From: an uncultured Saprospiraceae bacterium
Lineage (GTDB): Bacteria > Bacteroidota > Bacteroidia > Chitinophagales > Saprospiraceae
Length of the DNA: 36,897 nt
Direction of reading: 5' to 3'
Assembly (NCBI GenBank): GCA_937921595.1
Contig: CAKZTD010000254.1
Location: 1-36,897, forward strand
Shown: in pieces, positions 5,232 to 33,706 of the stretch
How positions within the stretch are numbered: position 1 is the first letter of the stretch
Layout of the letters: each line of letters opens with the position of its first letter
Position numbers and translations under genes: made by a program
The notes under the pieces: model-generated
Database searches by the model: none
The model's input: the letters and a program-made list of their open reading frames with translations, nothing else
What the model was told of the DNA's origin: nothing

Positions 5232-8200
5232 ATGTTCTCAATTTTTTTGCGTTTAAGCAAAAAGAACCTTAAGCCGTTCTCTAGCTTTTTGACTATTACG
5301 TTGTTTGTTTTTTGTTCCTTACAAAATTTAAATGGACAAAATATTTCTTTCAATAATTCAGTCCCTTCCGATTTAACGGTTTGTGAAGAAACAGAAATAT
5401 TTACGGTTGAGTTTGTTAATATTTCTGCAGGTGTGCTGAGTAACGTTGTTATTCACCTTGAAATGCCAGAAGGCATTAATTATGAGCCAGGAAGTATTAT
5501 TGAAAACTCAAGCTTGAATGTTCAAGAGCAGGACATTTCTAACCTATCTGATCCATATTTTTCCAGCAATGATATTTCAAATAATCAAACATTAAGCTTC
5601 TCATTTGAAGCTAGTGCAGATTTTGTAGCTTATACCAATCAAAATGCAGGCAATGTTTTTAATAACATTATTACTGTTGAGTATGATGGTTTTTCAGAAT
5701 CAGAAACAACGGCTCCATACAATATTCTTTTTGGTGCTTTATCAATTACTGATGTAAGTCCAATGTCAACGACAGCTTTCGTTGGAGGAACTTATATTAG
5801 AGTGGTATCAATTGCCAATGGTGGTTATGGTTCTATTTCATCGTTTGTATTAGAAGACATTCATGATGCAAATTCAACATTAGATGCTGTGAACTTAGGA
5901 ACCATCAATGCTGAAGGTTCTGCAATAACTTTTACATCATCTGATTTTACGACTATTGGAAATGGTGATGGTTATTTCGATCAGAATGAAGTTATCGTAG
6001 TAGAGCAAAAAATAGGAATTGCTGCTTGTGATGACTTTCAATCAACCCTAAGTGCTTATTGGGGATGTACTGGTGAAACGACTTATAGTAATGTGAAAAA
6101 ACCTCAGACCAATGTTGTTTTATATGCTCCGGATTTATTATTTGAAGCAACACCTTCTTTTAATACTTGCGTGGATGGATCACCAGATAACCAACAATTA
6201 AAAATTACTAATAGCGGAACGGGACCAGCCAATGAGTTAGAAATTGAAATAGATCCGGGACATGACAAACAGGTTTCTGCAATTGATATTTCAAGTATCA
6301 CCTTGAGTTTGAATGGTAATTCGCCTTCTTCAATAACACCTATAGCCACGGAAGCGGCACATACTTTTAGCTGTTTAGGTACTGATCCTAGAGATGGTTT
6401 TACACTCGCTATTCCACCGCTTCAACCAGGAGAAACTATTGTCTTAAACTGGGATACTTACACTTGTGCAACGAACACCTGTGGGAATGTTCGCTTAATT
6501 GGCTGGGAGTACGAAGCCGTTTATACCGACATGTGTAATAGTAAAGATTATGAGGATAAAGGAGATGGACAAGAAGAAAAACGAAAAAATATCCAAACAT
6601 TTTTTGAATATCCAACAAATTTAAGAGATCAAGAAGAAGGACTTTATACGTTGATTTTCCATTCTGCAATTTTTGATATGCCAGAAGAGGATGGTGCTTA
6701 TTTTGAAATTGAATATGATATCCCATTAGGTTTAGTGTGGAATGGTAATGCTTCGGATTTAGATCTAGCTTACACTAGTGGTTCTACCGAATGGATGCCA
6801 AGTGACATCGCCTACAATAATGCAAGTCGAAAATTGACGGCTAAATATGCCATGCCTATACCAGATGATTTTAGTTTGATTCACTCTACTTTTGATTTGA
6901 ATTTAACGGCAGATTGCTCTGAAGGTGGAGGAGATGCAAATGTAAAAGCTCAGGTTTACTATGTTATGAACCCGAGTTGTGATCCTCTTTATCGAATGAG
7001 ATTAGCCTGTCCTCAGGATGGTGTAACTAAGCTTTTTTGCCCTGGTAACTGTGAGCATGGATTAGCTTTTGAAAATTTTGAAATAGAAAGAGTAAGTTTA
7101 GGCATTTCTGATAACGATCAAGATGGACTTCCTGATGATGTCGATGCACCAGACTTTTCAAAAATAAAAACGAATCGAGTAATGGTTGGCGATATTTTTC
7201 AAACTGTTTTTGAAGGAACCATTCATACATCGGCGATTTATCCTTCTTGGGATTATGCTTACGCTAGATCTGAAATGCCATATGGAAACGAGATTGATGT
7301 TGCATCTGCTGAAGTCATAATAAAAGATGCTTCAACTGGTCAAACCTTAACTTGTGATCAGGTCTCATTTACTCATACAATGTCAGGGTCAGTTAAGATT
7401 GTTGATTTTGATTTCAGTCCTTCAACTTTAGCGGCTAATGGATGTACTGATTTTTTAGGTTTTGTTTTAGAAGAAGATGACAAAATAATTTTAAATGTAA
7501 AATATAAAGTAACTGGAAACCCTGGAGGTATCATTGAGCAAGTCGTTGTAGAAAATGATTTTTATGTAAGTGATACCGAAAATGCTCCTGGTTTTCAATG
7601 CTATGATTGGAATGATAATTTCACTCTAGTTGGATATTATTATGAAGTAACCACTTCTGATAATTTTAAAGTGACTTCTTGTACAAAAACAATCAACCAA
7701 AACTTTAAAATGAGTATTGGTACTTGTTGTACAAACTATGGAGGAGGAGATATTTTTCCTTACGAATATCGTAATTGGGCTCATGCGAAAACCTTAAAAG
7801 TAAATATCCCTGATGGCTATGCTTTTGATTATGGAAGAATTAGACAGTGGCGAACGGAGTCAAGCAATAAGACAGTAAAAGAAACACATAATAATATCCA
7901 ACCAGAAAGTATAGATGGAAACACATATACTTTTAATTTGGAAAACTATTATAAAATGAATGGTGGAAACCTGAATCTTTCTGATGATGGCTTCCACGGA
8001 AAAGTTTTTATAATTGTAAAACCTGAATGTACAGTTGATGAAACTATTTCTTCACCTGTTACCTGGACGTATACTTTTCAAGAGAATGATATCTTAGGTG
8101 GTTCAGAAACGGAGGAGTATGAAATTGCTCCGGATAACTTAACTTATATAAGGGCAGATCTTGATTTAAGTACAACTTTTCAAACACAACAAGTAACAGG

Positions 8201-11200
8201 TTCTACTGTAAGTTGGGACATTGAAGTAGAAGGCAAAAATGCGGATACTGAAAATGCATGGCTTTACTTGGAACATGTTGATGGAGAAATGGAGATTATA
8301 GAAGTTAGAGATATTGATGCAGATGTAGTGATTGCTAATATTGATGGTTTCTACCAGATAGGAGACGTAGATGAAAACGATACAAAGACTTATACTGTAA
8401 CCGTAAATTATAACGCTTGTGATTTATCAGAATTAAAAGTTGTTTCAGGCTATGATTGCGCTGGTTACCCAACTTCATTGGATGCTTATTCTTGTTCTTA
8501 TAATGAAATGATGCTTTACATTGAACCTCAAGAAACGGAGTTGCAAGTGAAGTTTAATGCCGAGTTACTAGGTAATGTAGATTGCTCGGATTACATAAGT
8601 GTAGAATTTGAAATGTTGAGCGCAAAGCTTTCCACTGTAGAAAATATTTTTGTAAATATTATTCAACCTAATTCACGAACCATTGAAATGGTTCCAGGAA
8701 CGGTTGAGGTTTTATATCCTGAATCAGGAAATTATTCACCAATCTCTGACCCTATATTGGAAGAATATACTTACTCTATTTCTGGGGCAGAAATGGATTC
8801 TGAAATTGGAACCAATGGATTGGTTGGTATTACTGATGTTACGGCTAATCGAGTGAAACTGAAATTTAGTGTGTTTTTGACACCAGATTTTCAGTCAGGA
8901 GATGTGTTGTCAGTTTTGATTGGAGGAGACGAAGCTTGTGGTAATCCATTACCTAATTTATCTTTAACGATTGATCCTAATGCTAGTTTTAGAAAAGTAT
9001 CTTCAATCGGAATCGATGAACTTGGAGATGATTGGTCGACCTCTTGGGGGGATTTTGATAATGATGGATTTGTTGATTTCTTTGTTACAGATTATAGAGC
9101 AGATTGGCCAAATAGATTATATCGAAATCAAGGAGATGGAACTTTTGATCAGGTGATTACTGGAGCAATTGTAACTGACCTTGCAACGTCTCTTGCATCG
9201 ACTTGGGGAGATTATGATAATGATGGAGATCTTGATTTATTTGTTTCTAATAATATTGGGTTTAAAAACTTTTTATATAGAAATAATGGAGATGCTACTT
9301 TTACCAAAATACTAAACGATCCTATAGTTAATTATGACGGATATTCTCATGGTGTATCATGGATCGATTATGACAATGATGGATTTATTGATTTGTTTGT
9401 AACGGATTATTTTTCTACCAGATTCAACCATCTTTACCACAATAACGGAGATGGAACTTTTACAGATGCAAACTCTTTATTACCAAGTTTAGAAAGTAGT
9501 TCTTCTCTAGGTAGTGCTTGGGCTGATTATGATAATGATGGATTTATTGATCTATTTGTAGGGAATATCAACAATGAGAACAATAGCTTATATAAGAATA
9601 CAGGCAATGGAGGATTTATTAAAATCACTAATGGTGATATTGTAAATGATGGTGGAAATTCGGTAGGAGCAAGTTGGGGAGATTATAATAATGATGGAAA
9701 TATTGACTTGTTTGTTTCCAATGCTGGTAACCAGGATAATTTCTTATACACCAATAATGGAGATGGTACTTTTACCAAAGTTACTGATGGTGATATTGTA
9801 AATGACGGTGGTCATTCACATGGTTCTGCTTGGGGGGATTATGACAATGATGGAGATCTTGACTTATTTGTAAGTAACGATCAAGAAGGTAAAAATTTAT
9901 TATACTCCAATAATGGAAACGGTACTTTTTCCAAATTATCGAATAACATTACAGAAGATAAAGAACACTCTTTTGGTGCAGCTTGGGCAGATTATGATAA
10001 CGATATGGATATTGATCTATTAGTGATTAATAGAGGGATGAATGAAAACTCGATGTATAAGAATAGTCGAGGAAAATGTCAAAGTAAAGCTTGTGTTACT
10101 TTAGTAGGAACCAATACTAACCGTTCTGCAATTGGAGCTAAGGTTAGAATAAAAGCAACAATCTATGGAGAAGAAGTTTGGCAATTAAGAGAGGTGACCA
10201 GTCAGTCTGGTGGAGGTACTGGTGGGCAAAATGATATGAAATTGATCATTGGTCTTGGAGATGCTACACAGATTGATGCGATGATGATCGAGTGGCCTTC
10301 AGGATACACACAGATTATAGAAGGGCTACCAATCGATGAATGCCATACAATAGAAGAAGATGAAGGAGGAGAGATTTGTGGAGTTGCATATATTGATGCA
10401 AATAATAATTGTGTGCAAGATAGTTTAGAATTAGGAATTCCTAATTTGAACATTATTATTCAGCCAGGAGATATTACTCTGACCACTGATGAAAATGGAG
10501 TTTATTCTACCTTTGTTGCTCCAGGTGTTTATACCATTAATCAAGGTGCTAGCCCACTTTGGGAACAAGATTGTACTTTAGAACATACAGTGAATGTTGT
10601 TCAATTTGGAGAAAGTTATTGTGGAAATAACTTCGCAAACTTTGCAACCAATCCTGCTCCAGATCTTGCAGTAGGTATTTCGACAACTCCTCATAGAATA
10701 GGTTTTGAAAACTTAATTGCTTTGACTTATTGTAATATGGGAACTGTTCCTGCGACAAATGTTATTTTAACTTTAACGATTGGTCCAGGTACTAATTTTA
10801 ATGGTGGACCAAATGATGACATTGTTTTGATTGATAGTTCTGTTCCTTGGGAAAGTAATGATGGTGAAACTGCGACCTGGTCTATCGGTGATTTAGGAAT
10901 CGGAGAAAGTGCGACAATCTTTGTAAAAGATTCTATTGCAAGTAATGTAGCTGCCGGAACGTTGATTCCTTTGACAGCAACCATTATTTCTAATGAAACT
11001 GAATTGGTGATAGCTAATAATAGTGATCAGAGTATGGAGCCTGCTGTAGGTGGTTTTGATCCAAACGATATTTCAGTTAGTCCGGAAGGTTATATTGATA
11101 ATGATCAAGAATTGATTTATACCATTCGTTTTCAAAATGTTGGAAATGCTGCGGTATCAACGGTTAGGATTACTGATCAGCTACCAACAGAATTAGATGT

Positions 11201-11744
11201 AGAAACCCTGGAAATGGGAGTTGCAAGTCATCCTTATCGTCTTGAAGTTATTGACGGAAATGTATTGGTTTGGAATTTTGAAAATATCAACATGCCAGAT
11301 AGTACAACGAATGAAGCTGAAAGTCATGGATATATTATTTTTAAAATAAAACCTGTTGAAGGACTGGAAGAAGGTGCGACTTTTAAAAATGATGCTTCTA
11401 TCTATTTTGATAATAATGAACCGATTCATACCAATGTAGTGGTGAACATTATTGGTGAAGAACCAAAATTTGAGATAGCAGATGATGCTTCTGAATTATT
11501 GGATATTTTTCCAAATCCAATGAGTGAAAAATCGATGATTAAAATCGTCGATCTTAATGGAAATAATATTTTGATGACCGGTTTGAATATCCATAATATT
11601 GTAGGATCTGAAATCTTTTCAAAAAGAGGAATGCTAAGAGATTCTTATGAATTTGAAAAAGGAGAACTTGCTCCGGGATGTTACTTAATCAGGGCAATAG
11701 GGGAGAATAGGAAAGAGTATGTTGGCAAGTTGATCATTCATTAA
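5232..11744 (+). CDS. Giant FG-GAP/VCBS and DUF11-like protein with T9SS type A sorting domain
   Basis: 2170 residues. The signal peptide is at about 1-36 (hydrophobic stretch then NLNGQ). The N-terminal ~1250 residues are beta-sandwich modules of DUF11-like type, many with paired cysteines. Residues ~1265-1610 hold seven FG-GAP/VCBS repeats of the form WGDYDNDGDLDLFVSN with DxDxDG calcium-binding loops, enough for one seven-bladed integrin-like propeller. An ASPIC/UnbV module follows at ~1615-1695 (IGAKVRIKA..WPSGYTQIIEGL). Next comes an SdrD-B-like domain at ~1712-1770 (GVAYIDANNNCVQDSLELGIPN), then two DUF11-like domains and a type A sorting domain at ~2090-2170 (LLDIFPNP..GKLIIH). It is expected to be a calcium-stabilised surface or secreted protein; its ligand is unknown. 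No dedicated PorP/SprF partner is expected for type A cargo. The C-terminal ~240 residues are paralogous to the truncated gene at the left window edge. Confidence 0.9.
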   Translation: MFSIFLRLSKKNLKPFSSFLTITLFVFCSLQNLNGQNISFNNSVPSDLTVCEETEIFTVEFVNISAGVLSNVVIHLEMPEGINYEPGSIIENSSLNVQEQDISNLSDPYFSSNDISNNQTLSFSFEASADFVAYTNQNAGNVFNNIITVEYDGFSESETTAPYNILFGALSITDVSPMSTTAFVGGTYIRVVSIANGGYGSISSFVLEDIHDANSTLDAVNLGTINAEGSAITFTSSDFTTIGNGDGYFDQNEVIVVEQKIGIAACDDFQSTLSAYWGCTGETTYSNVKKPQTNVVLYAPDLLFEATPSFNTCVDGSPDNQQLKITNSGTGPANELEIEIDPGHDKQVSAIDISSITLSLNGNSPSSITPIATEAAHTFSCLGTDPRDGFTLAIPPLQPGETIVLNWDTYTCATNTCGNVRLIGWEYEAVYTDMCNSKDYEDKGDGQEEKRKNIQTFFEYPTNLRDQEEGLYTLIFHSAIFDMPEEDGAYFEIEYDIPLGLVWNGNASDLDLAYTSGSTEWMPSDIAYNNASRKLTAKYAMPIPDDFSLIHSTFDLNLTADCSEGGGDANVKAQVYYVMNPSCDPLYRMRLACPQDGVTKLFCPGNCEHGLAFENFEIERVSLGISDNDQDGLPDDVDAPDFSKIKTNRVMVGDIFQTVFEGTIHTSAIYPSWDYAYARSEMPYGNEIDVASAEVIIKDASTGQTLTCDQVSFTHTMSGSVKIVDFDFSPSTLAANGCTDFLGFVLEEDDKIILNVKYKVTGNPGGIIEQVVVENDFYVSDTENAPGFQCYDWNDNFTLVGYYYEVTTSDNFKVTSCTKTINQNFKMSIGTCCTNYGGGDIFPYEYRNWAHAKTLKVNIPDGYAFDYGRIRQWRTESSNKTVKETHNNIQPESIDGNTYTFNLENYYKMNGGNLNLSDDGFHGKVFIIVKPECTVDETISSPVTWTYTFQENDILGGSETEEYEIAPDNLTYIRADLDLSTTFQTQQVTGSTVSWDIEVEGKNADTENAWLYLEHVDGEMEIIEVRDIDADVVIANIDGFYQIGDVDENDTKTYTVTVNYNACDLSELKVVSGYDCAGYPTSLDAYSCSYNEMMLYIEPQETELQVKFNAELLGNVDCSDYISVEFEMLSAKLSTVENIFVNIIQPNSRTIEMVPGTVEVLYPESGNYSPISDPILEEYTYSISGAEMDSEIGTNGLVGITDVTANRVKLKFSVFLTPDFQSGDVLSVLIGGDEACGNPLPNLSLTIDPNASFRKVSSIGIDELGDDWSTSWGDFDNDGFVDFFVTDYRADWPNRLYRNQGDGTFDQVITGAIVTDLATSLASTWGDYDNDGDLDLFVSNNIGFKNFLYRNNGDATFTKILNDPIVNYDGYSHGVSWIDYDNDGFIDLFVTDYFSTRFNHLYHNNGDGTFTDANSLLPSLESSSSLGSAWADYDNDGFIDLFVGNINNENNSLYKNTGNGGFIKITNGDIVNDGGNSVGASWGDYNNDGNIDLFVSNAGNQDNFLYTNNGDGTFTKVTDGDIVNDGGHSHGSAWGDYDNDGDLDLFVSNDQEGKNLLYSNNGNGTFSKLSNNITEDKEHSFGAAWADYDNDMDIDLLVINRGMNENSMYKNSRGKCQSKACVTLVGTNTNRSAIGAKVRIKATIYGEEVWQLREVTSQSGGGTGGQNDMKLIIGLGDATQIDAMMIEWPSGYTQIIEGLPIDECHTIEEDEGGEICGVAYIDANNNCVQDSLELGIPNLNIIIQPGDITLTTDENGVYSTFVAPGVYTINQGASPLWEQDCTLEHTVNVVQFGESYCGNNFANFATNPAPDLAVGISTTPHRIGFENLIALTYCNMGTVPATNVILTLTIGPGTNFNGGPNDDIVLIDSSVPWESNDGETATWSIGDLGIGESATIFVKDSIASNVAAGTLIPLTATIISNETELVIANNSDQSMEPAVGGFDPNDISVSPEGYIDNDQELIYTIRFQNVGNAAVSTVRITDQLPTELDVETLEMGVASHPYRLEVIDGNVLVWNFENINMPDSTTNEAESHGYIIFKIKPVEGLEEGATFKNDASIYFDNNEPIHTNVVVNIIGEEPKFEIADDASELLDIFPNPMSEKSMIKIVDLNGNNILMTGLNIHNIVGSEIFSKRGMLRDSYEFEKGELAPGCYLIRAIGENRKEYVGKLIIH

Positions 11745-13386: not shown

Positions 13387-13539
13387 AACTCTTTTCCAAA
13401 GCTAAATATAAATATCTTGATCCCATTTTTTAAAACACACGATACTACAAACAGACGGTCTTAGACTTTTTAAAATAAGATAAGACCTATTAATCCTTCT
13501 GTCAAAATTGTATTGAGAATCATTAACACATTCAAGGTT

Positions 13540-16500
13540 ATGAAAAGATTTTATAAAACAGTAGTTTTTTTGATGAGCATTTTTTGCCATCAATTTGTGT
13601 ATGGTCAATGTGACGTAACATTATCTAATCCTACACCATGTGCTAACGAAACAGTGACTTTTACAGTAGATAGTCCTGTTGGTTCTTACGCTTGGGATAT
13701 GGATAATGATGGTTGGATAGATGCTTTTGGAACGAGTGTTACTTATACTTTTCCAGAAAGTAATATCGAATTAAATTATACCATTAATCTATATTTGAAT
13801 GGGACGGAATGTAACAACATTGATGTATTAGTTGGAGGCTTGCCAGATGCAAGTGTAGGAGTTATTCCTGGAAGTGGAATTCTTGAAGGTAATTTAATTC
13901 GGGTTTGTAGTGGAAGTCCAGAAATTACTTTAGAGGTTTATAACTCATCTACGACCTATGATGATAATCAAAGTTATGAGGTAAATTGGGGAGATGGAAC
14001 CATTGAGAATTTTGATAATACAACCTTTCCAAATACGAGTACGATTAGTCATGATTATGATACTTATGGATATTATAATTTGAGTTTTACGGTTACTTCT
14101 ATAAATGGATGTACCAATATAACTTATTACACTTTATACAATGGAAGTAATCCTTCTGTTGGTTTAGCAAATCCAGGAAACACGGTAGGAATTTGTGCTC
14201 CGGCAACAATTGATTTTCCAATTACCAACACAGGAAATAATCCAACAGGAACAATTTATACATTATATGTCAGTGGAGAAGTGGTGGCTTTATATACACA
14301 AGAAACGATACCTGGAGTATTTTCATATACTTTTGAAGAGTCATCTTGTGGAGAAGCAACAGGAACAGGAAATTATCAAAATGCATATGATGTACAAATT
14401 TTAGCATCTAATCCTTGTGGTTCTTCACAAGCGACGATTGAGCCGATTGAGTTGAGTAGTCCACCAGAAGTATTATTTGCTTCAGATGACCCTTCAAATG
14501 GTTGTGAAGAACAAACCTATACATTTACAAATGCATCTGGAAATCTTGCCGAAGTAGTGGCAGGTACTTGTACTAACCTTACTCCTAGTTGGACAATTAC
14601 TCCAGGTATTCCTGGAATACACTGGATTATAGAAAGTGGAAATACTTTCGCTTCAGACGAAATAGAAATTACCTTTTTAATTCCAGGAGAGTATGAGATA
14701 GAAATGACCGTTAATAGTCCGAGTTGTGGTTCTGGAAGTTATAGTGAATCGGTGACTATTTTTGAAGGCCCAGAGGCTGTAGCTAGTGGCGGATTAATTA
14801 CCGCTTCTGTTCCTGCGATATCTGATGATTGTATGCCTTCAATTGGTGTTTTTTCAAATGAATCGACTGGAGATAGTTTAAGTTTTGAATGGGGGATTTC
14901 ACCTGGTTCAGGATGGATGTTTGTTGATACTTTTAATTTTGATAGCCCTGATTTCCAGGTAATGTTTACCGAAGCTGGGGAGTACAATGTATCCTTGACT
15001 GCATCTAATTTTTGTGGATCGGATACCTGGGACACGCTCTTAGTTGTAGCTGATGTACCGGTGGTCACCATTCCATCTATTCCAAATCAATGTGGATCTG
15101 CTACCTTTGACTTTGATCCTTCGATGGTAGATATTTTTGCAAATTTTGGAACCTTATCTTCTGTTGAATGGTCTTTTCCTGGAGCAGTACCAGCAACATC
15201 TTCATCAACTTATCCAACAGGTATTTATTACGAAAATCCTGGTATCTATACCATAGAAGTTACTATAGAAAATCAATGTGGTTCTCATACCGCAACACAA
15301 ACCTTTGAAATTGAAGCAGTGGGTTCAGTATCTGTAAGTGACGATGTAACGATCTGTGAAGATGGTGCACCATTTACCGTTGTTGGAACTGCAAGTGGTG
15401 GTGTTTGGACTGGTAATGGAGTTGAATCAAACGGTGATTTCGATCCGAGCAATAGTAGTGTCGGTGAAAATGTTTTGATCTATTCATTACAGGATGGAGC
15501 TTGTCTTTTACAAGATAGTTTAGTCGTTACTATTAATCCTTTACCAATCGTAGATGCTGGAGAAAATCAATCGGCTTGTATTGATGCGGCCACTTTTTTA
15601 ATCTCAGGAGGAACACCAGTAGGAGGAACCTGGTCAGTCAATAATGGGGGAGTGATTGTAGGAGGAGATTCTTTTGACCCTGTAGCATCAGGAGTAGGCG
15701 TGTTTACCTTGACTTATAATTATACCAGTCTAGAGAATTGTTCTGGTTCAGATACAAAAGTTATTGTGATTAATGAATTGCCAAATGTAGAAGCTGGTCC
15801 AAATCAAAGTCTTTGTGATAATCCTTTTGATTTTGAATTAACAGGAGCAAGTCCGGCAGGTGGAGCATGGTCTGGTCCAGGTGTAAATTTAGATGGTACT
15901 TTTAATGCAGCTTCTGTAGGTGAGGGTACTTATACTTTATACTATGATTTTACAAACCCGTTAACGGGATGTTATAATATTGATAGTTTGATCATGACAG
16001 TAACACCGAATGAAACAGCGGATGCTGGTCCTGGCGAAACATTGTGTTTGAATGTATCTCCTTTTGAAATTACAACGGGAACACCGGTAGGAGGTGTGTG
16101 GAGTGGAGCAGGAATAGATAGTTTAGGAAATGTTTTTAATCCAGAAATTGCTGGTGTAGGAACGCATACTTTGACCTATACCATCGGCCAAGGGGTTTGT
16201 CAAACATCGGATACTAAAGTAATTACTGTTTTAGATATTCCAACTTTGACAGTACCTAAAGGACAGTTGTTATGTATTAATGACTTGGCTTATGATTTGA
16301 GTGCAGCTACTCCGATCGGAGGTACTTGGACAGGGACAGGAATCAATGGAGATTCTTTTGATCCAGCGACTGCTGGTATCGGGTTTCACTTAATTACTTA
16401 TACCTATACTGATCCAGGAAGTAATTGTCCCAATAGCGAGGCTATAGAAATGGAAGTTGTAGGATTACCAAATATTGTAGTAAATGATACGACCTACTGT

Positions 16501-19500
16501 AACACTCCTGGTTTAGTAAATTTACCGACGGTTACTCCAACAGGAGGAACATGGACAGGGACTGGTGTAGTTGGAAATACTTTTGATCCAAGTGCCGCAG
16601 GTGGCCCAGGAAGTTATACTATAATTTATACTTATTCAGATGATAATAATTGTGAAAATTCAGAAGATGTAATTATCACTATTATTGATCCAGTTAATAT
16701 CGATGCAGGTAATGATTTTGAAATTTGTATTGATGCAGATGAAGTTGATTTAAGTCAAGTCGCTTCTCCGGCTGGGGGTATTTGGAATGCCAATGGAAGT
16801 CTTGGTTTAAATGGTACATTATTTAATCCAGCTCAGGCAGGTGTAGGATTACATACGCTGACTTATACTATTGGAACAGGTAATTGCCAAGTTTCGGATG
16901 AAATAGAAATTACGGTTAATCCACTTCCGGTTGTCAATACAATGGAAAATTTTGGAGTCTGTGTTAGTGTGACAAGTGTTGAATTAAGTGCTACTCCAGC
17001 AGGTGGAGATTGGACTGCGAATAACAATGGTTCTCTAGTAGGAAATATTTTTAACCCAAATGATTCTGGGGAAGGTATTTTTTCTTTTACCTATACTTAT
17101 GTTGATGGAAATAATTGTCAAAATACTGATGATCTATTAATCACCGTTTACGGGTTGCCAACAATTATAACTAACGATACTACTTACTGTAGTACTCCTG
17201 GTTTAGTGAGTCTTCCAGCAGCAGAACCTTTGGGAGGTACTTGGACAGGGATTGGAGTAAGTAATGGAATGTTTGATCCTCAAGGTGCAGGAGGTGCTGG
17301 AACTTATACCGCAACTTATACCTTTGCGGATGCTGATGGTTGTCAAAATACAGGAAATTCTATTATCACCGTTATTGAACCTGCAACGATTGATGCAGGA
17401 GTAAATGATACCTTATGTATTGATGATGTAGCATTTCAATTAGGAGGATTTATTCCTGCAAATGGTATTTGGTCTGGTCCTGGAATCATCGATGCTCAAA
17501 TGGGAATTGTTGATCCATCTATAGCAGGAGCAGGAGTCCATGTTTTGACTTACGCTTATGGTATTGGTAATTGTTATGTGGAAGATACAAAAACAATTAC
17601 AGTGATTGATTTAGAAGTGGAAGCAGGAGAAGATGAATCAAGTTGTTTTACTTATGATGTCTTTTTATTAATGGATTATTATCCATTAGGAGGTGTTTGG
17701 ACTGGAACAGGGATCACTAATAACCAGACTGGAGCGTTTGATCCTTCTGTTTCAGGAGATGGAACTTTTGAATTGACCTATACTTATACCGATCCGATTA
17801 CTGGTTGTGTAAGGAGTGATTCTAAAGAGATGACTATTTTTCCAATGGAAGAAGCGGCATTTAATTTACCACCACTTGCTTGTAGAAACGAGCCGGTATC
17901 TTTTGAAAATCTTTCACCAGCAGGTTATGATATGCTCTGGGATTTTGGAATAGGAACCGAACCATCCATGGAAAATAATCCAGTTTATACTTATACCGTA
18001 TCAGGTACTTATACAGTAACCTTAATTGTAGAAAATGAATTCGGATGTAAAGACACTATTAGTCATAATATAGTAATTGCAGATGAACCTGAAGCACTTT
18101 TTGAACCTAGCTCAGATGAAGGATGTGGAAGTGATGGATTTACTTTTGAGAATCAAAGTTTTGGTGATAGCTTATCTTATTTCTGGGAGTTTGGAGATTT
18201 TCAAACAAGTACTGAAGAGGATCCAGGAGTTATTTATTTTGAACAAGGAACTTTTGATACGACCTATTTGATTACTTTGACTGTAACGAATATTTGTGGT
18301 AGTCATACTTATCAGGATTTAATTTTAATTCATCCAAATCCAACAGCAGATTTTGGTATTGCACCATTAACAGAATGCTCTCCTTTACTAGTTGATTTTG
18401 CGAATGCATCGACAGGAGCTGCTACTGAATTTTTCTGGGATTTTGGAAATGGAAATACTTCAACGGAACAAATTCCACCAACACAAACGTATTTTACAGA
18501 TTCAACTTATAGTGTTTATACGGTAACACTTATAACCACTAATCAATGTGGATTAGATACGTCAACAGCTGAGGTGATCGTAGAGTCTGCAAATGTTGTA
18601 GCAGCAGCGGAAGCATCAGTATTATCCGGTTGTGTTCCTTTATCGGTAGATTTTAGCAACTTCAGTACAGCAGTTGCTACGATTAATTGGGATTTTGGAG
18701 ATGGAAATACTTCTTCAGAATTAGAACCAACTCACGTGTTTACAGAGCCAGGAGATTATACCGTAATTCAATATGCAAATAGCGATTGTGGTTATGATAC
18801 GACGGCTTTAAATATTACCGTATATCCTTCACCAGAAGTTAGTTTTAATCACCTGGATCAAGTATGTTCTGGACAGGAGATTTCTTTTAATAATACTTCG
18901 ACTAATATTTCAGGAAACCAATGGGATTTCGGAGATGGTAATACTTCGACTTTAAATAACCCAAGTCATACTTATGCTGCAGCTGGAGATTATACGGTTA
19001 CTTTGACAGGGATTTCATCTTCGAATCAATGTGATGCTATATATACCAGTACGGTTACCGTTTTACCTTTACCGGTAGCTTCTTTCGAACCGTCAACGAC
19101 TTATGGTTGTGCTCCTCTTGATATAGAATTTATTAATAACTCTTCTGGTGCTTTGTTTTATCAGTGGACCTTTGGAGATGGAAATACATCTATTGATGAA
19201 AATCCAAATCATGTTTTTGAAGAAGCAGGAACTTATGAAGTCACTTTATTAGTAACTGATGGAAATGGTTGTTTTGAAGATTATGAAGTCTTTAATATTA
19301 TTGTAACTCCAAGACCAACAGCTATTTTTGATTATGAAAGAGATGCTTCTTGTGGATTGCCGGCAACTATTTATTTTGAAAATAATTCAATAGGAGCGAT
19401 AGGATTTACTTGGTCATTTGGAGAAGGAACAACCTCTCCGTTTACTGATCCAACACATACTTTTACTGAAGAAGGAACTTATGAAGTTACCTTGGTTGCT

Positions 19501-20361
19501 TACAACCAGTTTAGCTGTAGCGATACGACGATATTGAGTATTGATGTTTATGAAAACCCATCGGCTGGAATTGAAATCGAAACGATGAGTGGTTGTGAAC
19601 CTTTAGAAGTACAGTTTAATAATACGTCATTATTTAGTAACTCTTTTATATGGGATTTTGGAGATGGAACAACGTCAACGGAAAATGATCCAACTCATGT
19701 ATATACCGATGCTGGAGATTATGAAGTAACTTTGATTGCCAGTATTAATAATGCCTGTTCAGATACGATTTCACTTTCGGAATTGATTAATGTTCACCCT
19801 GCTCCATTTGCAAACTTTGAAGCTTTTGAATTAGAGGATGATGGAACGTATGAGTTGACTAATTTATCTGAAAATGCAGATGAATATTATTGGGAATTTT
19901 CAGATGGTGCGACTAGTAATTTAGAACATCCAGAGCATCGCTTTTTGACAAACGGTGTTCATCAATTATACCTAGAAGCAAGTAACGAGTATGGATGTGT
20001 AGATGATACGCTTATTAATTTCATACCTGATTTTGTAAAAGGATTATTCTTGCCAAATGGTTTCTCACCAGAACAGGGGATAGGGGATGTTCGATTATTC
20101 AAACCAAAAGGTATTGGTATTAAAGAGTATCATATTCAGATCTTCTCAACTTATGGTCAATTACTTTGGGAGTCTAAAGAGTTAGATGAGCAAGGACGAC
20201 CTTCTGAATCTTGGGATGGAATTGTTGACGGTAGAATGATGCCACAGGATGTTTACGTTTGGAAATGTAATGCGATCTTTAAAGATGGATCGAATTGGGG
20301 CGGTGTTAGAAATAAGAAAGGACATTATAAGACGATTGGATCTTTAGTCTTGTTGAGATAA
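13540..20361 (+). CDS. Giant GGxW/PKD-repeat adhesin with T9SS type B sorting domain
   Basis: Start placed at the ATG at 13540 because a signal peptide begins there (MKRFYKTVVFLMSIFCHQFVYGQ); the upstream TTG at 13513 only adds nine polar residues. The product is 2273 residues. The first ~590 are PKD-like and Ig-like sandwiches. Residues ~600-1440 hold 11 repeats of about 75-85 residues with the core GGTWTGTGV...FDPs.aGvGtHtLTYTY, most with a cysteine near each end that could pair. Residues ~1445-2150 hold nine PKD repeats with the core WDFGDGNTS..NPsHtY. The last ~110 are a type B sorting domain (LFLPNGFSPEQGIGDVRLF through SLVLLR). Length, modular build and the adjacent PorP/SprF gene are those of SprB-like cell-surface adhesins used in gliding or attachment. 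No catalytic domain is visible. Confidence 0.92.
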   Translation: MKRFYKTVVFLMSIFCHQFVYGQCDVTLSNPTPCANETVTFTVDSPVGSYAWDMDNDGWIDAFGTSVTYTFPESNIELNYTINLYLNGTECNNIDVLVGGLPDASVGVIPGSGILEGNLIRVCSGSPEITLEVYNSSTTYDDNQSYEVNWGDGTIENFDNTTFPNTSTISHDYDTYGYYNLSFTVTSINGCTNITYYTLYNGSNPSVGLANPGNTVGICAPATIDFPITNTGNNPTGTIYTLYVSGEVVALYTQETIPGVFSYTFEESSCGEATGTGNYQNAYDVQILASNPCGSSQATIEPIELSSPPEVLFASDDPSNGCEEQTYTFTNASGNLAEVVAGTCTNLTPSWTITPGIPGIHWIIESGNTFASDEIEITFLIPGEYEIEMTVNSPSCGSGSYSESVTIFEGPEAVASGGLITASVPAISDDCMPSIGVFSNESTGDSLSFEWGISPGSGWMFVDTFNFDSPDFQVMFTEAGEYNVSLTASNFCGSDTWDTLLVVADVPVVTIPSIPNQCGSATFDFDPSMVDIFANFGTLSSVEWSFPGAVPATSSSTYPTGIYYENPGIYTIEVTIENQCGSHTATQTFEIEAVGSVSVSDDVTICEDGAPFTVVGTASGGVWTGNGVESNGDFDPSNSSVGENVLIYSLQDGACLLQDSLVVTINPLPIVDAGENQSACIDAATFLISGGTPVGGTWSVNNGGVIVGGDSFDPVASGVGVFTLTYNYTSLENCSGSDTKVIVINELPNVEAGPNQSLCDNPFDFELTGASPAGGAWSGPGVNLDGTFNAASVGEGTYTLYYDFTNPLTGCYNIDSLIMTVTPNETADAGPGETLCLNVSPFEITTGTPVGGVWSGAGIDSLGNVFNPEIAGVGTHTLTYTIGQGVCQTSDTKVITVLDIPTLTVPKGQLLCINDLAYDLSAATPIGGTWTGTGINGDSFDPATAGIGFHLITYTYTDPGSNCPNSEAIEMEVVGLPNIVVNDTTYCNTPGLVNLPTVTPTGGTWTGTGVVGNTFDPSAAGGPGSYTIIYTYSDDNNCENSEDVIITIIDPVNIDAGNDFEICIDADEVDLSQVASPAGGIWNANGSLGLNGTLFNPAQAGVGLHTLTYTIGTGNCQVSDEIEITVNPLPVVNTMENFGVCVSVTSVELSATPAGGDWTANNNGSLVGNIFNPNDSGEGIFSFTYTYVDGNNCQNTDDLLITVYGLPTIITNDTTYCSTPGLVSLPAAEPLGGTWTGIGVSNGMFDPQGAGGAGTYTATYTFADADGCQNTGNSIITVIEPATIDAGVNDTLCIDDVAFQLGGFIPANGIWSGPGIIDAQMGIVDPSIAGAGVHVLTYAYGIGNCYVEDTKTITVIDLEVEAGEDESSCFTYDVFLLMDYYPLGGVWTGTGITNNQTGAFDPSVSGDGTFELTYTYTDPITGCVRSDSKEMTIFPMEEAAFNLPPLACRNEPVSFENLSPAGYDMLWDFGIGTEPSMENNPVYTYTVSGTYTVTLIVENEFGCKDTISHNIVIADEPEALFEPSSDEGCGSDGFTFENQSFGDSLSYFWEFGDFQTSTEEDPGVIYFEQGTFDTTYLITLTVTNICGSHTYQDLILIHPNPTADFGIAPLTECSPLLVDFANASTGAATEFFWDFGNGNTSTEQIPPTQTYFTDSTYSVYTVTLITTNQCGLDTSTAEVIVESANVVAAAEASVLSGCVPLSVDFSNFSTAVATINWDFGDGNTSSELEPTHVFTEPGDYTVIQYANSDCGYDTTALNITVYPSPEVSFNHLDQVCSGQEISFNNTSTNISGNQWDFGDGNTSTLNNPSHTYAAAGDYTVTLTGISSSNQCDAIYTSTVTVLPLPVASFEPSTTYGCAPLDIEFINNSSGALFYQWTFGDGNTSIDENPNHVFEEAGTYEVTLLVTDGNGCFEDYEVFNIIVTPRPTAIFDYERDASCGLPATIYFENNSIGAIGFTWSFGEGTTSPFTDPTHTFTEEGTYEVTLVAYNQFSCSDTTILSIDVYENPSAGIEIETMSGCEPLEVQFNNTSLFSNSFIWDFGDGTTSTENDPTHVYTDAGDYEVTLIASINNACSDTISLSELINVHPAPFANFEAFELEDDGTYELTNLSENADEYYWEFSDGATSNLEHPEHRFLTNGVHQLYLEASNEYGCVDDTLINFIPDFVKGLFLPNGFSPEQGIGDVRLFKPKGIGIKEYHIQIFSTYGQLLWESKELDEQGRPSESWDGIVDGRMMPQDVYVWKCNAIFKDGSNWGGVRNKKGHYKTIGSLVLLR

Positions 20362-29638: not shown

Positions 29639-29653
29639 AAATCACCGTGATTT
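29639..29653. promoter_or_regulatory. Palindrome, second of an inverted pair (possible operator of tesB)
   Basis: AAATCAC-C-GTGATTT is the reverse complement of the element at 29574-29588. Centre-to-centre distance is 65 bp, about six helical turns. It ends 38 bp before the tesB start chosen here. It is followed by TTTCGCTTTTTT, so a stem formed between the two copies (15 bp, 50-base loop) could also act as a terminator. Confidence 0.5.
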
Positions 29654-29691
29654 TCGCTTTTTTAATTCCTCAATATGCTTACCTTGTAGGT

Positions 29692-30564
29692 GTGAAAAAT
29701 TCAGAAGAACTATTAAACCTACTAGACCTTGAACAGATTGATGATAATATCTTTCGAGGTCAAAATTATAAAACGCCTTGGGGACGAGTATTTGGAGGGC
29801 AAGTATTGGCTCAGGCTTTACATGCTGCTTCACAAACGGTTCCCGTTGAGCGTTGTGCTCATTCCATGCACGGCTATTTTATCCTTGCCGGCGACATCAA
29901 TGTTCCAGTTGTTTATCAAGTTGAGCGATTACGAGACGGAGGTAGTTTTGCTACTCGTCGAGTAACGGCGATCCAGAAGGGGAGACCTATTTTTAATATG
30001 GCAGCTTCTTTTCAATTGGATCAACCGGGTGTAGAGCATCAGATCGAAATGCCTGATGTTCCAGCTCCGGAAGATGTGCAAACAGATTTGGATTATGCCG
30101 CTTCATTGAAAGAGTCTAATCCGACTTGGTATCAACGATTGAGTTTGCCAAAGCCTATCGAATTTCGTACCGTCGAAAAATTCAATTTTATTGATTCTAA
30201 AAAGAGTGATCCTTTCCGTCATATTTGGATGAAAGCGATTGGTGAAATGCCGGATGATAAGCGAGCACATCAAGAAGTCTTGGCTTATGGTTCTGATTAT
30301 AGTTTGTTGACAACTGCTTTTCTTCCACATACTGGAACAGTCGATATTCGGAATATGTTTTTTGCCAGTCTTGATCATGCGATGTGGTTTCATAAAGATT
30401 TTAGAATTGATGATTGGTTACTCTATGCTTTGGATAGTCCAAGTGCATCAAATTCTCGTGGATTTTCTCGAGGTAATATTTTTAATCGGGAAGGGAAGCT
30501 GGTGGCTTCGGTGGTGCAGGAAGGCTTGATGAGAGATAATTCCTCCCGACGGTCGGATAAGTAA
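29692..30564 (+). CDS. tesB: Acyl-CoA thioesterase II
   Basis: With the GTG at 29692 as start the product is 290 residues and begins MKNSEELLNLLDLEQIDDNIFRG, matching the usual TesB N-terminus; the GTG at 29647 would add 15 odd residues and lie inside a palindrome. It has the tandem hot-dog fold segments VFGGQVLAQAL and LDHAMWFHKDFRIDDWLLY. The positions equivalent to the Escherichia coli catalytic set are D202 (YGSDYSLL), S226 in place of Thr (FASLDHAMWF) and Q276 (VVQEGLMR). It hydrolyses acyl-CoA to free fatty acid and CoA in the cytoplasm. The last seven residues (SSRRSDK) go beyond the usual end and are encoded by sequence that belongs to the hairpin mosaic starting about 30540. Confidence 0.92.
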   Translation: MKNSEELLNLLDLEQIDDNIFRGQNYKTPWGRVFGGQVLAQALHAASQTVPVERCAHSMHGYFILAGDINVPVVYQVERLRDGGSFATRRVTAIQKGRPIFNMAASFQLDQPGVEHQIEMPDVPAPEDVQTDLDYAASLKESNPTWYQRLSLPKPIEFRTVEKFNFIDSKKSDPFRHIWMKAIGEMPDDKRAHQEVLAYGSDYSLLTTAFLPHTGTVDIRNMFFASLDHAMWFHKDFRIDDWLLYALDSPSASNSRGFSRGNIFNREGKLVASVVQEGLMRDNSSRRSDK

Positions 30565-30770
30565 ATGAGCGAATAGGGGTAGATTTTCCTGACGGAAAAT
30601 AGTGATGAGTGATAGGATTCGCTAAAGCGAATAGGGATAGATTGCCTGCGGTAATAGTGATTGATAAAAACCAAAAGCGGAGTGCTGATCTTTTAGACTA
30701 GCACTCCGCTTTTGGTTATATGACTATTCGCGTAGCGAATCTATCCCTAATTCAGCTCTGCTGAATTATC
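30540..30770. repeat. Mosaic of short hairpins in inverted arrangement (REP/BIME-like)
   Basis: At least five small hairpins, most with ATT/AAT ends, occur in about 230 bp. They are ATTTTCC-TGAC-GGAAAAT at 30583-30600, ATTCGCT-AA-AGCGAAT at 30617-30632, ATTGCC-TGC-GGTAAT at 30641-30655, ATTCGC-GTA-GCGAAT at 30726-30740 and AATTCAGC-TCT-GCTGAATT at 30749-30767. A shorter CCGAC-G-GTCGG lies at 30546-30556. They are joined by conserved spacers. On the plus strand of the left half, hairpin-AGGGATAG-hairpin-AGTGAT; on the minus strand of the right half, hairpin-AGGGATAG-hairpin-AGTCAT. The two halves are therefore inverted copies of the same layout around the long stem at 30669-30717. It lies between two convergent genes, as REP and BIME elements usually do. 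Confidence 0.8.
30669..30717. terminator. Long perfect hairpin between convergent genes
   Basis: AACCAAAAGCGGAGTGCT pairs over 18 bp with AGCACTCCGCTTTTGGTT around a 13-base loop. It sits midway between tesB and the receptor gene and is symmetrical, so it could end transcription from both sides, although no long T run follows the stem on either strand. It also forms the centre of the hairpin mosaic. Confidence 0.7.
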
Positions 30771-33609
30771 CCCTCCATCTTCTGCGTTCATCGCGGTCCG
30801 ATTTAGTTTTTGCTTTTCCAGAATTGAAGTTTCTAAAATTATAAGCAAAATTGAGCATAACGTACCGTTGCAAAACTTTTGAGCGCAAGTCTTCGATATA
30901 AGTCTCCGTGACATTTCTTGAAATACTTTGATTTTGTTTTAATACATCAAAAACAGAAAGCGTCAATTCTCCTCTTTGATTTTTAAAGAGTTTCTTTCCA
31001 ATACCTGCAGTCCAAAGGAAATAATCATCATTGAAACCATCAGCTAATCCAGTGTATAATTGGTGAGCAATATTGGTTCTAAAAACGATACCTTTTGGAA
31101 AAATTACATTGAATTTTACTTTTGAAGTTTGATTAAGGAACTTTGAATCAATCCCCGTTTGAATGGTATTGGTAACATTGTTGAAATTTGAACGAGTCGA
31201 AATAGTAAAGTCAACATACTCGCTAATATTGCTACTTAAACTAAAACCTGCTCCGACAGCTCTATTGTTAGAGGTATTAGCAATATCGTTGATGAGGCCT
31301 GGGGTCTTGTTTAATGATGCGGTCAGATCGATATTGAAATTACTTTTAATTTTACTCAATGGAAGACCATAAGTGATATAAGTATTTGCTGCCCAATAAC
31401 CAGATAAGTTAACTGGAAGCGTTAGTTGTGTACCTCGTTCAAAATCTATTTTATCAAAAATTGGATTATCAGTTTGTGATAAATAAGTGGAGTTTCCGAT
31501 ATAGTTATTGGAGAAAGAACTATTCAACATGAAATAAAATACTGTTGCTTTCTCTGTATTTGTTTTTGAATAACGAGCAGAAACCCGATGAGTATATGCT
31601 TGATCTAATTCTGGATTTCCAATGGATAGTTGTAGTGGGTTAGAATTGTCAATGACATTTTGTAATTGCTCAACACTTGGCGATTGTGTTCTACCCATGT
31701 AAAAAATTCTTAGGTTTTCTTGGCGATCAAAATTGTAACGGATCATAGCCATTGGGAGGAGATTAACAAAGGTTTCTGAAACTTGATTCGCTTGAGGAAA
31801 AAGTTCATCGCTATTTAAAAACGACCATTGAACATTGGCTCTGGCCATGATGAAAAAATCTCTTCCTTTGTTGTAATTATAACCGGCACCTGCTCGATGG
31901 GTGATGTATTCATTTTTAAAAACATTAGTCAAGTCAGTGTTGAGATCATCATGTAATAAGGTCTCATCAGAAAAGTCAAAAGTTTCTTTATCAGAATTAT
32001 CACGATCATAAGAATAACGATACATCAACATCAGTCGACTTCGTTCTCCCAAGGGCTCCGTATAAGTCACATTAGAGGAGATGTTCCAACCATCAATGTC
32101 GATATTGGCAACTTGGTCAAGAGTGTCAATTCTTGTTTCTATTCTGAAGAATTTGTCTTCAGAATCTAGTGAGCTATTCCCCGATTTATAATTGTTTCCA
32201 TGACGTAAATCTAGGGAAATCGTTCTGCCAGGTTTGTTTAGTCTTCGACGATAGTTGATGGAATTTGAAAAATCAAGTGCTGATAAATCAGAGAAATAAG
32301 TATTGTTCGTTTGAGAAGCTAGATCGGTTCCGAAAAGCGTTTGTCCGAAAGTATTGGAAAGCCCTTCGTTTTCTTGAAAGCTCAAACGAGGACGGATTGA
32401 AATCTCGTTTAGAGAATCAATTTTATATTGGATTCTAGCATTGAATCGATGATTGAAATTTCGAGTGTCGGCAGAGTTGGTTTCAGAATAAAGTTCGTTT
32501 ACTGCCTCATCATTGATGTATTCAAGATTGGAAATATCCTCAGAAGAAATATCTGTCATATTGAAAAAATAACTTCCACTGACATCGATTTTCTTACCCC
32601 ATTTATCAGAGTAGTTTAATCCAACCGCATTGGTTTCAGCAATACCACCTTGTTGGCTAACTAAAAAATCACGAGATGATCCACCACCTCTTCCTCCTCG
32701 GCTTCCGCCACCTCTTCCGCCTCTTCCTCTACCTCTTCCTCCTCGGCCACCACCGCCAGTTACCCCTAATAAATCTTCAGAAGAAAAATTTTGTTGGTTG
32801 ACATTATTCGCTTGTCCGATAATTGAAATTCGTCGATCACCATCGAAAAAACTACTGTTCCCTCCAGCTTGATATCGATCTTCGTAACCATAGCCAGCAT
32901 ATGCTTTTCCGAATTGGCCATTTCGCATTTCAGGTCGGGTAATGATATTTATAGTTTTGCTGGTTTCTCCATCTTGAAAACCAGAAAATTTTGCCTGCTC
33001 ACTGGTTTGATCGTAAACTTGAATTTTGCTAATGACTTCAGCAGGTAGATTTTTTAATGCAGCCTGAGGATCATTACCAAAGAATCGACGACCATCCACT
33101 AAAACTTGTGTTACATCTTCTCCTTGTGCTTGAATTTTTCCATCTTGAATCACTACACCTGGCATCTTTTCAATCAACTCTTCTGCCGAAGCATCTTTCA
33201 TCACTTTAAAAGCATCCGCATTGTATTGAGTCGTATCTCCTTTTTGTTCAGCGAGAGGAATTTTTCCAGTAACTTCCACTTCACTCAATTCTACTCCTTC
33301 TCTCATTTTGACCGTACCCATATCAATGTCTTTGTCTGTGATGGTGATTTCTGCATTTAAATCACTAAAACCGATATAGGAAATTTGGAATTTATAGCCA
33401 CCTTGAGAAATATCTTTTATTTCAAAACTTCCATCTGCGCCAGTGACTGCTGTCTTGTAGGCTTCACCCCAAGGTTGCATTAACGAAACATGCGCTCCAA
33501 TTAAGGATTCACTATTTTTGATGTCAATGACTTTGCCTTTGAGTGTGAAATTTTGAGCACTTAGAAATGAAGTGAAACTTAGAAAGAATAGGAGTAGACT
33601 TATTCGCAT
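30766..33609 (-). CDS. Outer-membrane beta-barrel family receptor (TonB-dependent receptor-like)
   Basis: Start taken at the ATG whose codon ends at 33609, where a signal peptide begins (MRISLLLFFLSFTSFLSAQ); 25 more codons are open upstream but add no leader. The product is 947 residues. Residues ~20-100 are a carboxypeptidase-regulatory-like domain (LKGKVIDIKNSESLIGAHV). Residues ~105-230 are a plug-like domain (VTGKIPLAEQKGDTTQYNADAF, then VLVDGRRFFGNDPQAALKNLP). The rest is the large barrel of the OMP_b-brl family. A glycine/arginine-rich segment lies at ~284-312, between early barrel strands. The role is probably uptake or surface binding of an unidentified ligand; no TonB box was identified. 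The stop codon lies inside a hairpin of the repeat mosaic. The Spy-like gene 97 bp upstream is on the same strand and probably in the same operon. Confidence 0.9.
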   Translation of the reverse strand: MRISLLLFFLSFTSFLSAQNFTLKGKVIDIKNSESLIGAHVSLMQPWGEAYKTAVTGADGSFEIKDISQGGYKFQISYIGFSDLNAEITITDKDIDMGTVKMREGVELSEVEVTGKIPLAEQKGDTTQYNADAFKVMKDASAEELIEKMPGVVIQDGKIQAQGEDVTQVLVDGRRFFGNDPQAALKNLPAEVISKIQVYDQTSEQAKFSGFQDGETSKTINIITRPEMRNGQFGKAYAGYGYEDRYQAGGNSSFFDGDRRISIIGQANNVNQQNFSSEDLLGVTGGGGRGGRGRGRGGRGGGSRGGRGGGSSRDFLVSQQGGIAETNAVGLNYSDKWGKKIDVSGSYFFNMTDISSEDISNLEYINDEAVNELYSETNSADTRNFNHRFNARIQYKIDSLNEISIRPRLSFQENEGLSNTFGQTLFGTDLASQTNNTYFSDLSALDFSNSINYRRRLNKPGRTISLDLRHGNNYKSGNSSLDSEDKFFRIETRIDTLDQVANIDIDGWNISSNVTYTEPLGERSRLMLMYRYSYDRDNSDKETFDFSDETLLHDDLNTDLTNVFKNEYITHRAGAGYNYNKGRDFFIMARANVQWSFLNSDELFPQANQVSETFVNLLPMAMIRYNFDRQENLRIFYMGRTQSPSVEQLQNVIDNSNPLQLSIGNPELDQAYTHRVSARYSKTNTEKATVFYFMLNSSFSNNYIGNSTYLSQTDNPIFDKIDFERGTQLTLPVNLSGYWAANTYITYGLPLSKIKSNFNIDLTASLNKTPGLINDIANTSNNRAVGAGFSLSSNISEYVDFTISTRSNFNNVTNTIQTGIDSKFLNQTSKVKFNVIFPKGIVFRTNIAHQLYTGLADGFNDDYFLWTAGIGKKLFKNQRGELTLSVFDVLKQNQSISRNVTETYIEDLRSKVLQRYVMLNFAYNFRNFNSGKAKTKSDRDERRRWRG

Positions 33610-33706
33610 AGGAGGAGGGTTTATTGAGGACTTGTGAAGGATTAAAATTAAAAATGAATAACTAGGTAAAACCCGATTATTCATTTTTAATTAAGATTGT
33701 TTTAAT

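Follow-up and report, generated by a model that had tools for sequence, protein, structure and literature searches.

Between two convergent genes of an uncultured Saprospiraceae bacterium lies a cluster of short hairpins that differ in their stems and share their ends and joints, with a left half that seems to be mirrored by the right half. What kind of element is this, and is the mirror image its essential property? The window analysed here, that is, the whole stretch of DNA with its 36,897 nucleotides, holds the cluster at positions 30539-30766. We consider it probable that this array belongs, as a single copy, to a young REP/BIME-like family confined to one species; the family's inferred role is that of hairpins in the 3' untranslated region (3' UTR) of mRNAs. 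The features of the locus are as follows, with R1 denoting a covariance model of the module.

29647-30564, plus strand: acyl-CoA thioesterase II (TesB-like) gene (Pfam PF02551, PF20789, PF13622)
30539-30558, plus strand: module 1, weak hairpin ATTCCTCCCGACGGTCGGAT with internal mismatches, located over the 3'-terminal part of the thioesterase frame
30575-30582, plus strand: linker AGGGGTAG (sequence read)
30583-30600, plus strand: hairpin module 2, ATTTTCCTGACGGAAAAT, 7-bp stem and 4-nt loop (R1 match 30575-30608, E 1.9e-4; fold)
30601-30616, plus strand: compound linker AGTGATGAGTGATAGG, which with the preceding T gives TAG TGA TGA (sequence read)
30617-30632, plus strand: hairpin module 3, 6-bp stem (sequence and fold)
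30633-30640, plus strand: linker AGGGATAG, the commonest linker of the family (genome counts)
30641-30655, plus strand: hairpin module 4, TGC loop with C-G closure (R1 match 30633-30663, E 1.2e-6)
30656-30661, plus strand: end word AGTGAT of the plus-strand array (sequence read)
30669-30717, no strand: central stem-loop, 18-bp perfect stem with arms 30669-30686 and 30700-30717 (inverted-repeat search, fold)
30720-30725, minus strand: end word AGTCAT of the minus-strand array (sequence read)
30726-30740, minus strand: hairpin module of the minus-strand array (R1 match 30718-30748, E 2.4e-5)
30741-30748, minus strand: linker AGGGATAG of the minus-strand array, CTATCCCT on the plus strand (sequence, R1 match)
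30750-30766, minus strand: first hairpin of the minus-strand array, sharing one base with the TAA stop codon of the convergent gene (sequence read)
30766-33684, minus strand: convergent gene encoding an outer-membrane beta-barrel protein of 972 aa (Pfam PF14905, PF13715, PF13620)

The array is real and not a product of chance. Positions 30540-30770 fold with a z-score of -8.15, none of 200 shuffles being as good, in large part because of the central stem, and R1 finds three modules (E 1.2e-6 to 1.9e-4), all of them outside the 39 on which it was trained. The first-pass annotation had described hairpins with ATT/AAT ends and recurring linkers around an 18-bp stem; these are present as described and the perfect central stem is confirmed. 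Its five hairpins become six beside the central stem, the sixth being the weak module 1, a hairpin with a TC/TC mismatch that has similar counterparts among family members. Words of the AGGGATAG type form the joints; the plus-strand part reaches 30661, and the minus-strand part occupies 30720 onwards. Both halves had been said to follow the same linker order: the last two linkers are indeed repeated on the right, the other linkers of the left half are not, and the mirror is partial. The central stem-loop at 30669-30717 is a candidate for a two-way transcription terminator; a simple terminator scan did not flag it. It is akin to a stem at locus L077 (~2060-2110; CGGAGTRCT...AGYACTCCG), and both stems lie between mirrored arrays, as if the central stem were a repeated element itself. 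An Rfam search of the window gave 0 matches at the gathering score, and promoter and PHROGs scans added nothing. Further upstream, the plus strand of the window contains two very large open reading frames of 2170 and 2282 aa (5232-11744 and 13513-20361).

The thioesterase frame traverses module 1 and ends in SSRRSDK followed by TAA, these terminal residues being encoded by module 1 and the bases just beyond it. The alignment with the best PDB homologue extends to residue 298 of 305, at which point the homologue has three residues left. As far as sequence goes, this fits an array that started at about the original stop position; C-termini vary, so it is no proof. Orthologues of the thioesterase were found nowhere in the genus, which leaves the window's own site without a sister comparison. 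On the opposite side, the stop codon of the barrel gene lies inside GGGGATAA, a linker-like word.

The same layout recurs throughout the genome. Linker AATAGGGATAGATT, with up to one mismatch, has 112 copies in 8.04 Mb compared with 5 for the reversed pattern, and R1 recognizes at least 132 modules with E values of at most 1 when 150 of 5512 candidates are scored. Further copies had been anticipated in this genome or in related ones; they are abundant in the former, and none were found in the latter. The unit is a hairpin, mostly of 13-20 nt, joined head-to-tail to others by AGGGATAG-type linkers. R1 was built from 39 aligned modules selected for pairing, in which 98.7% of the stem cells are paired and covariation reaches 0.742 versus 0.210 in shuffled alignments (0 of 500). 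Pairing is also found without a stem filter, in 159 modules defined by a linker-like word plus AT...AT ends only: their inner pairs are Watson-Crick in 89.7% of cases, compared with 56.8% for swapped arms (maximum 62.6% in 200 trials). Perfect stems occur in 106 of the 159; as whole modules these comprise 66 distinct sequences, built on 35 distinct stems. Conserved linkers, another early claim, call for a qualification: the left linker of these modules matches AGGGATAG exactly in 124 and ends in GTAG in 8 of the 159, but loci were located with the linker word or with a model containing it, and part of the constancy is a consequence of this. The longest identical stretch common to arrays at different loci measures 41 nt, about one module with its linkers, and copying of whole arrays is thus not visible.

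Hairpins of a TCGCTGCGCTTG class were noted at 36 places; among the 21 loci listed, they are mostly coding-looking or isolated. At L273, L283, L285 and L299 (C4, C60, C63 and C235), isolated TCGCTGCGCTTG-type words stand in intergenic-looking DNA without AGGGATAG linkers. These isolated words may be decayed copies or may belong to a different family of palindromes.

The position of the arrays relative to genes is informative about the mirror. In 88 loci (345,657 bases) found by linker or model, R1 gives 191 hits with E values no higher than 5; the best 159 of these (E up to 0.041), a set distinct from the 159 unfiltered modules, group into 107 arrays. By our gene calls, a same-strand gene precedes 89 of the 107: 44 of these arrays lie between tandem genes, 43 between convergent ones, and 2 have no further gene on the stretch. 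The other 18 comprise 10 antisense arrays in tandem gaps and 8 arrays in divergent gaps. Within tandem gaps, sense arrays outnumber antisense ones by 44 to 10 (binomial p 3.4e-6). A convergent neighbour is seen for 43 of 87 array genes and for 64 of 219 background genes (p 0.0013), the latter taken from 20 stretches covering 326 kb, with array and background genes called by different rules, both simple and our own. The location between convergent genes proposed for the family holds for 43 arrays, and 44 sense arrays lie in tandem gaps instead.

Close module pairs, defined as those within 130 nt, are head-to-tail in 52 of 67 cases and have their tags outside in 15 and inside in 0. Mirrored gaps number 18 and contain 36 of the 107 arrays; 12 are convergent by our gene calls, each of the other three arrangements accounts for 2, and the reverse array order occurs in 0. 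Tandem gaps also contain sense arrays, most of which have no mirrored counterpart. Mirror images thus arise mainly because each convergent gene has its own sense array, and the idea of the mirror as a unit of its own is in the main abandoned. Most simply, the mirror in the window consists of two sense arrays meeting tail to tail.

Arrays also tend to begin at the stop codon. A stricter coding-score test is passed by 79 of the 107 arrays and failed by 28, including both window arrays; about 10 of these failures, among them the window's two, are due to a low score alone; a long frame does end at these arrays. Of the 79 array genes, 41 stop with TAG, compared with 46 of 218 background genes (p 6e-7). 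A TAG belonging to a linker serves as the stop in 16 of the 79 tested genes, compared with 2 of 180 in the control, and the first paired base follows the stop by 0-1 nt in 41 of 79 versus 40 of 180. As read from the sequence, the linkers contain stops of the form TAG GGA TAG and TAG TGA TGA that are absent from their reverse complements. The host genes, named from their C-termini by reading, look mixed and include SerC, AlaRS, Pgk, deformylase and others; some of these C-termini resemble Bacteroidota secretion signals, which, together with the OMP_b-brl_3 barrel protein of the window, points to a genome of that phylum.

Which known repeat systems does the family resemble? REPINs consist of short palindromic units in inverted pairs, two inverted REPs moving as a unit with a RAYT. 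Part of the copies described here likewise form inverted pairs; unlike in REPINs, most close pairs are head-to-tail and a RAYT partner was not found. In this context, a look for a RAYT-type tyrosine transposase in the genome had been proposed. Two PF01797 (RAYT-type) genes do exist, L085 (C131:44660-45001) and L086 (C333:6768-7010), R1 has no match at either locus, and neither gene is flanked by the family. A reading as RAYT-flanked REPs was accordingly set aside, both candidate genes being free of family copies around them. By eye, the two loci carry palindromes of their own, of the CCCTGAAGGG type and the GCAAGTTT..AAACTTGC type, which are unlike the window family; the GCAAGTTT..AAACTTGC type also adjoins the array at L021.

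In the portions of PMC3733652 available to us, REPs are described as preferring tandem and convergent gaps, lying close to 3' ends and being distributed patchily over species, with most convergent-gap REPs of P. entomophila and S. wittichi at most 20 bp from both 3' ends. GTAG ends of REPs often provide the TAG stop of the flanking gene there, the GTAG tag is found in more than 90% of the members of most published families, inverted dimers dominate, and head-to-tail arrangements are absent or rare in most. Sub-families show alternative complementary stem residues, G-T pairing is frequent, and association of GTAG repeats with a RAYT is frequent, not universal (PMC3733652). Compared with this account, our family has much in common with GTAG REP/BIME elements: many dispersed small palindromes with a one-sided unpaired tag, an intergenic location near 3' ends, use of the tag's TAG as a stop, clusters, inverted pairs with tags outside, a patchy occurrence over species, and stems with alternative complementary residues. 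It differs in that the tag is mostly AGGGATAG and only rarely GTAG (8/159), head-to-tail pairs predominate (52/67), a G-T excess is lacking and no RAYT flanks the copies. The stems seem more varied here (35 kinds in 106), a statement made without numerical comparison with a published family. The REP/BIME-like organisation suggested at first sight is thus matched in location and stop-codon habits and departed from in the GTAG tag, the inverted dimers and the RAYT.

Two further systems are worth comparing. According to the same portions of PMC3733652, CGTC-tagged REPs have no dedicated transposase, count Bacteroidetes among their phyla, lie near 3' ends, have stems of 8-9 bp and rarely form clusters. 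The family is like them in its closeness to 3' ends, the lack of a dedicated transposase and its Bacteroidota host, and unlike them in that its linkers carry no CGTC tag. Arrays of the TAACTGA heptamer, as far as the available parts of PMC4679880 describe them, are direct repeats without a predicted fold, located mostly upstream of start codons in the most-studied species. They share with our family a short repeated word yielding forward stops and a sparse occurrence that includes Bacteroidetes, and some overlap gene ends (PMC4679880); in contrast, the family folds into hairpins and mostly sits at the stops of genes. The family is REP-like and a member of neither the GTAG nor the CGTC superfamily. 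No published description of it was found in the literature, where a small part of the matches to the linker letters was viewed.

The distribution among relatives is narrow. In 59 related genomes the linker occurs 0-11 times per genome and the reversed pattern 0-12 times; four genomes of the same genus have 5, 3, 1 and 3 copies against 4, 3, 1 and 6 in the controls, and R1 has no match in the three same-genus genomes listed. R1 matches were obtained in 1 of 199 genomes of the taxonomic family and in 3 of 396 of the order, the source genome included. The order-level genomes G044 and G366 were rejected as carriers, since their single matches (E 0.0014 and 0.0023) correspond to the chance expectation for 396 genomes at a cut of 0.01. 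A wide distribution suggested by exact long-pattern stretches, 34 in named genomes and 2 in viral contigs, was also rejected: their outer paired runs span 3-4 bp, of which 3 are forced by the pattern.

Sister species offer a view of the sites themselves. Same-genus orthologues of SerC, AlaRS and Pgk, all of which carry arrays in the source genome, have 71-85% protein identity. The array is absent from 9 of 9 readable 3' gaps (three sister genomes for SerC, two for AlaRS and four for Pgk), and R1 yields no significant match in 11 sister loci (best E 0.26). At the Pgk gap, the convergent gene of ~350 codons found in the source genome is retained by sisters G001 and G002; in the remaining two the convergent frame is shorter. 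An inverted repeat is seen by eye in this gap in three of the four sisters; in the source genome, arrays lie between each stop codon and such an inverted repeat. Samples of 360 kb and 283 kb from two sister genomes, searched de novo for arrays built on different linkers, revealed no dominant word or obvious array, with little power, since the same sampling of the source genome barely reveals the family. Because sisters at 71-85% protein identity have no arrays at the nine sites, the gain was, judging from these sequences, probably recent.

Several other explanations have to be weighed against this picture. Chance palindromes in AT-rich intergenic DNA account well for random stretches of the genome, where 419 6-bp hairpins compare with 426 from a Markov model. 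They do not account for the array stretches, with 267 compared with 175, for the stem covariation or for the linker counts (112 against 5); the copy numbers already refute this explanation, which we hold to be next to impossible. Ordinary intrinsic transcription terminators in series would suit hairpins between convergent genes, and a terminator-like stem does lie in the middle of the window array. None of the 79 genes, however, has a terminator-like site, meaning a stem followed by a T run, between its stop and the end of the array, and serial terminators were rejected for this reason. Past the array such sites are no commoner than in control frames (11/78 vs 31/176), and the sister Pgk gaps have the inverted repeat, in three of four, without any array, all of which makes terminators in series very improbable.

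A host regulatory 3'-UTR element, in which single-stranded AGGGAUAG between the hairpins would bind an RNA-binding protein and arrays would be gained where useful, deserves more attention and is nevertheless unlikely. It would agree with a linker that stays exact in 124 of 159 modules, partly by construction, while stems drift, with the mostly sense orientation and the position at the stop codon, and with the stronger folding just 3' of the stop, where the median is -9.3 kcal/mol compared with -3.1 in control frames. Against it, linker counts in the same genus are at control level and R1 has no match in the three listed genomes, the host genes look mixed, some arrays lie away from genes, and a G-U preference is missing. 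This last point also bears on the claim that the fold, not the sequence, is under selection: stems covary and pairing is kept, but selection at the RNA level is unproved, since the non-Watson-Crick inner pairs (G-T 20, A-C 18, others 37, of 728) show no preference for the pair tolerated by the transcribed strand alone. Such strand symmetry is what one would expect of a DNA-level palindrome array, in which gyrase, an HUH enzyme or replication proteins would act on a single-stranded hairpin or a cruciform, with pairing kept as either strand must fold or as template switching mends quasi-palindromes. The loops of odd-length modules fit this too: on the linker strand they are TNC in 80 cases and GNA in 4 (n=116), with C-G closure in 101 of 116, and the opposite strand consequently has C-GNA-G triloops, which are unusually stable in DNA. 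A role in DNA alone would not explain, however, why arrays are mostly in sense and begin at stop codons, and the stabilities computed for the two strands, as DNA and as RNA, are nearly equal, which is why we think this explanation distinctly unlikely.

We therefore return to a young REP/BIME-like family with a putative role in mRNA. Once transcribed, an array would fold into consecutive hairpins right where the 3' UTR begins. By analogy with other REPs close to stop codons, this series could be a structural obstacle that protects the transcript's 3' end against exonucleases, impedes ribosomes at the stop, or does both. An effect on ribosomes is cited, in the part of PMC12306157 available to us, for REPs within 15 nt of the stop codon, and 3' decay is among the roles named for REPs in the portions of PMC3733652 used here. 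Stops present in the linkers in the sense direction only would render insertion at a gene end harmless mainly in that direction, which may explain part of the orientation bias. How the family spreads is a separate question. RAYT-type processing in trans is possible and unsupported. Doubtful as well is a self-spreading unit of one hairpin plus AGGGATAG (mostly 23-26 nt), added singly and in sense orientation at stop codons, in which each new TAG could receive the next unit, with fold and linker inherited and stems renewed or co-mutated.

The family adds to the Bacteroidota a REP-like element outside both tag classes described in the available portions of PMC3733652. It combines near-constant linkers, changing yet paired stems, a mostly sense orientation and a start at the stop codon, which is an unusual combination. 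If the gain is as recent as it appears, a comparison of close strains could reveal how such elements arise at gene ends. The same strains could also tell whether hairpins close to the stop have an effect on ribosomes, on exonucleases, or on neither.
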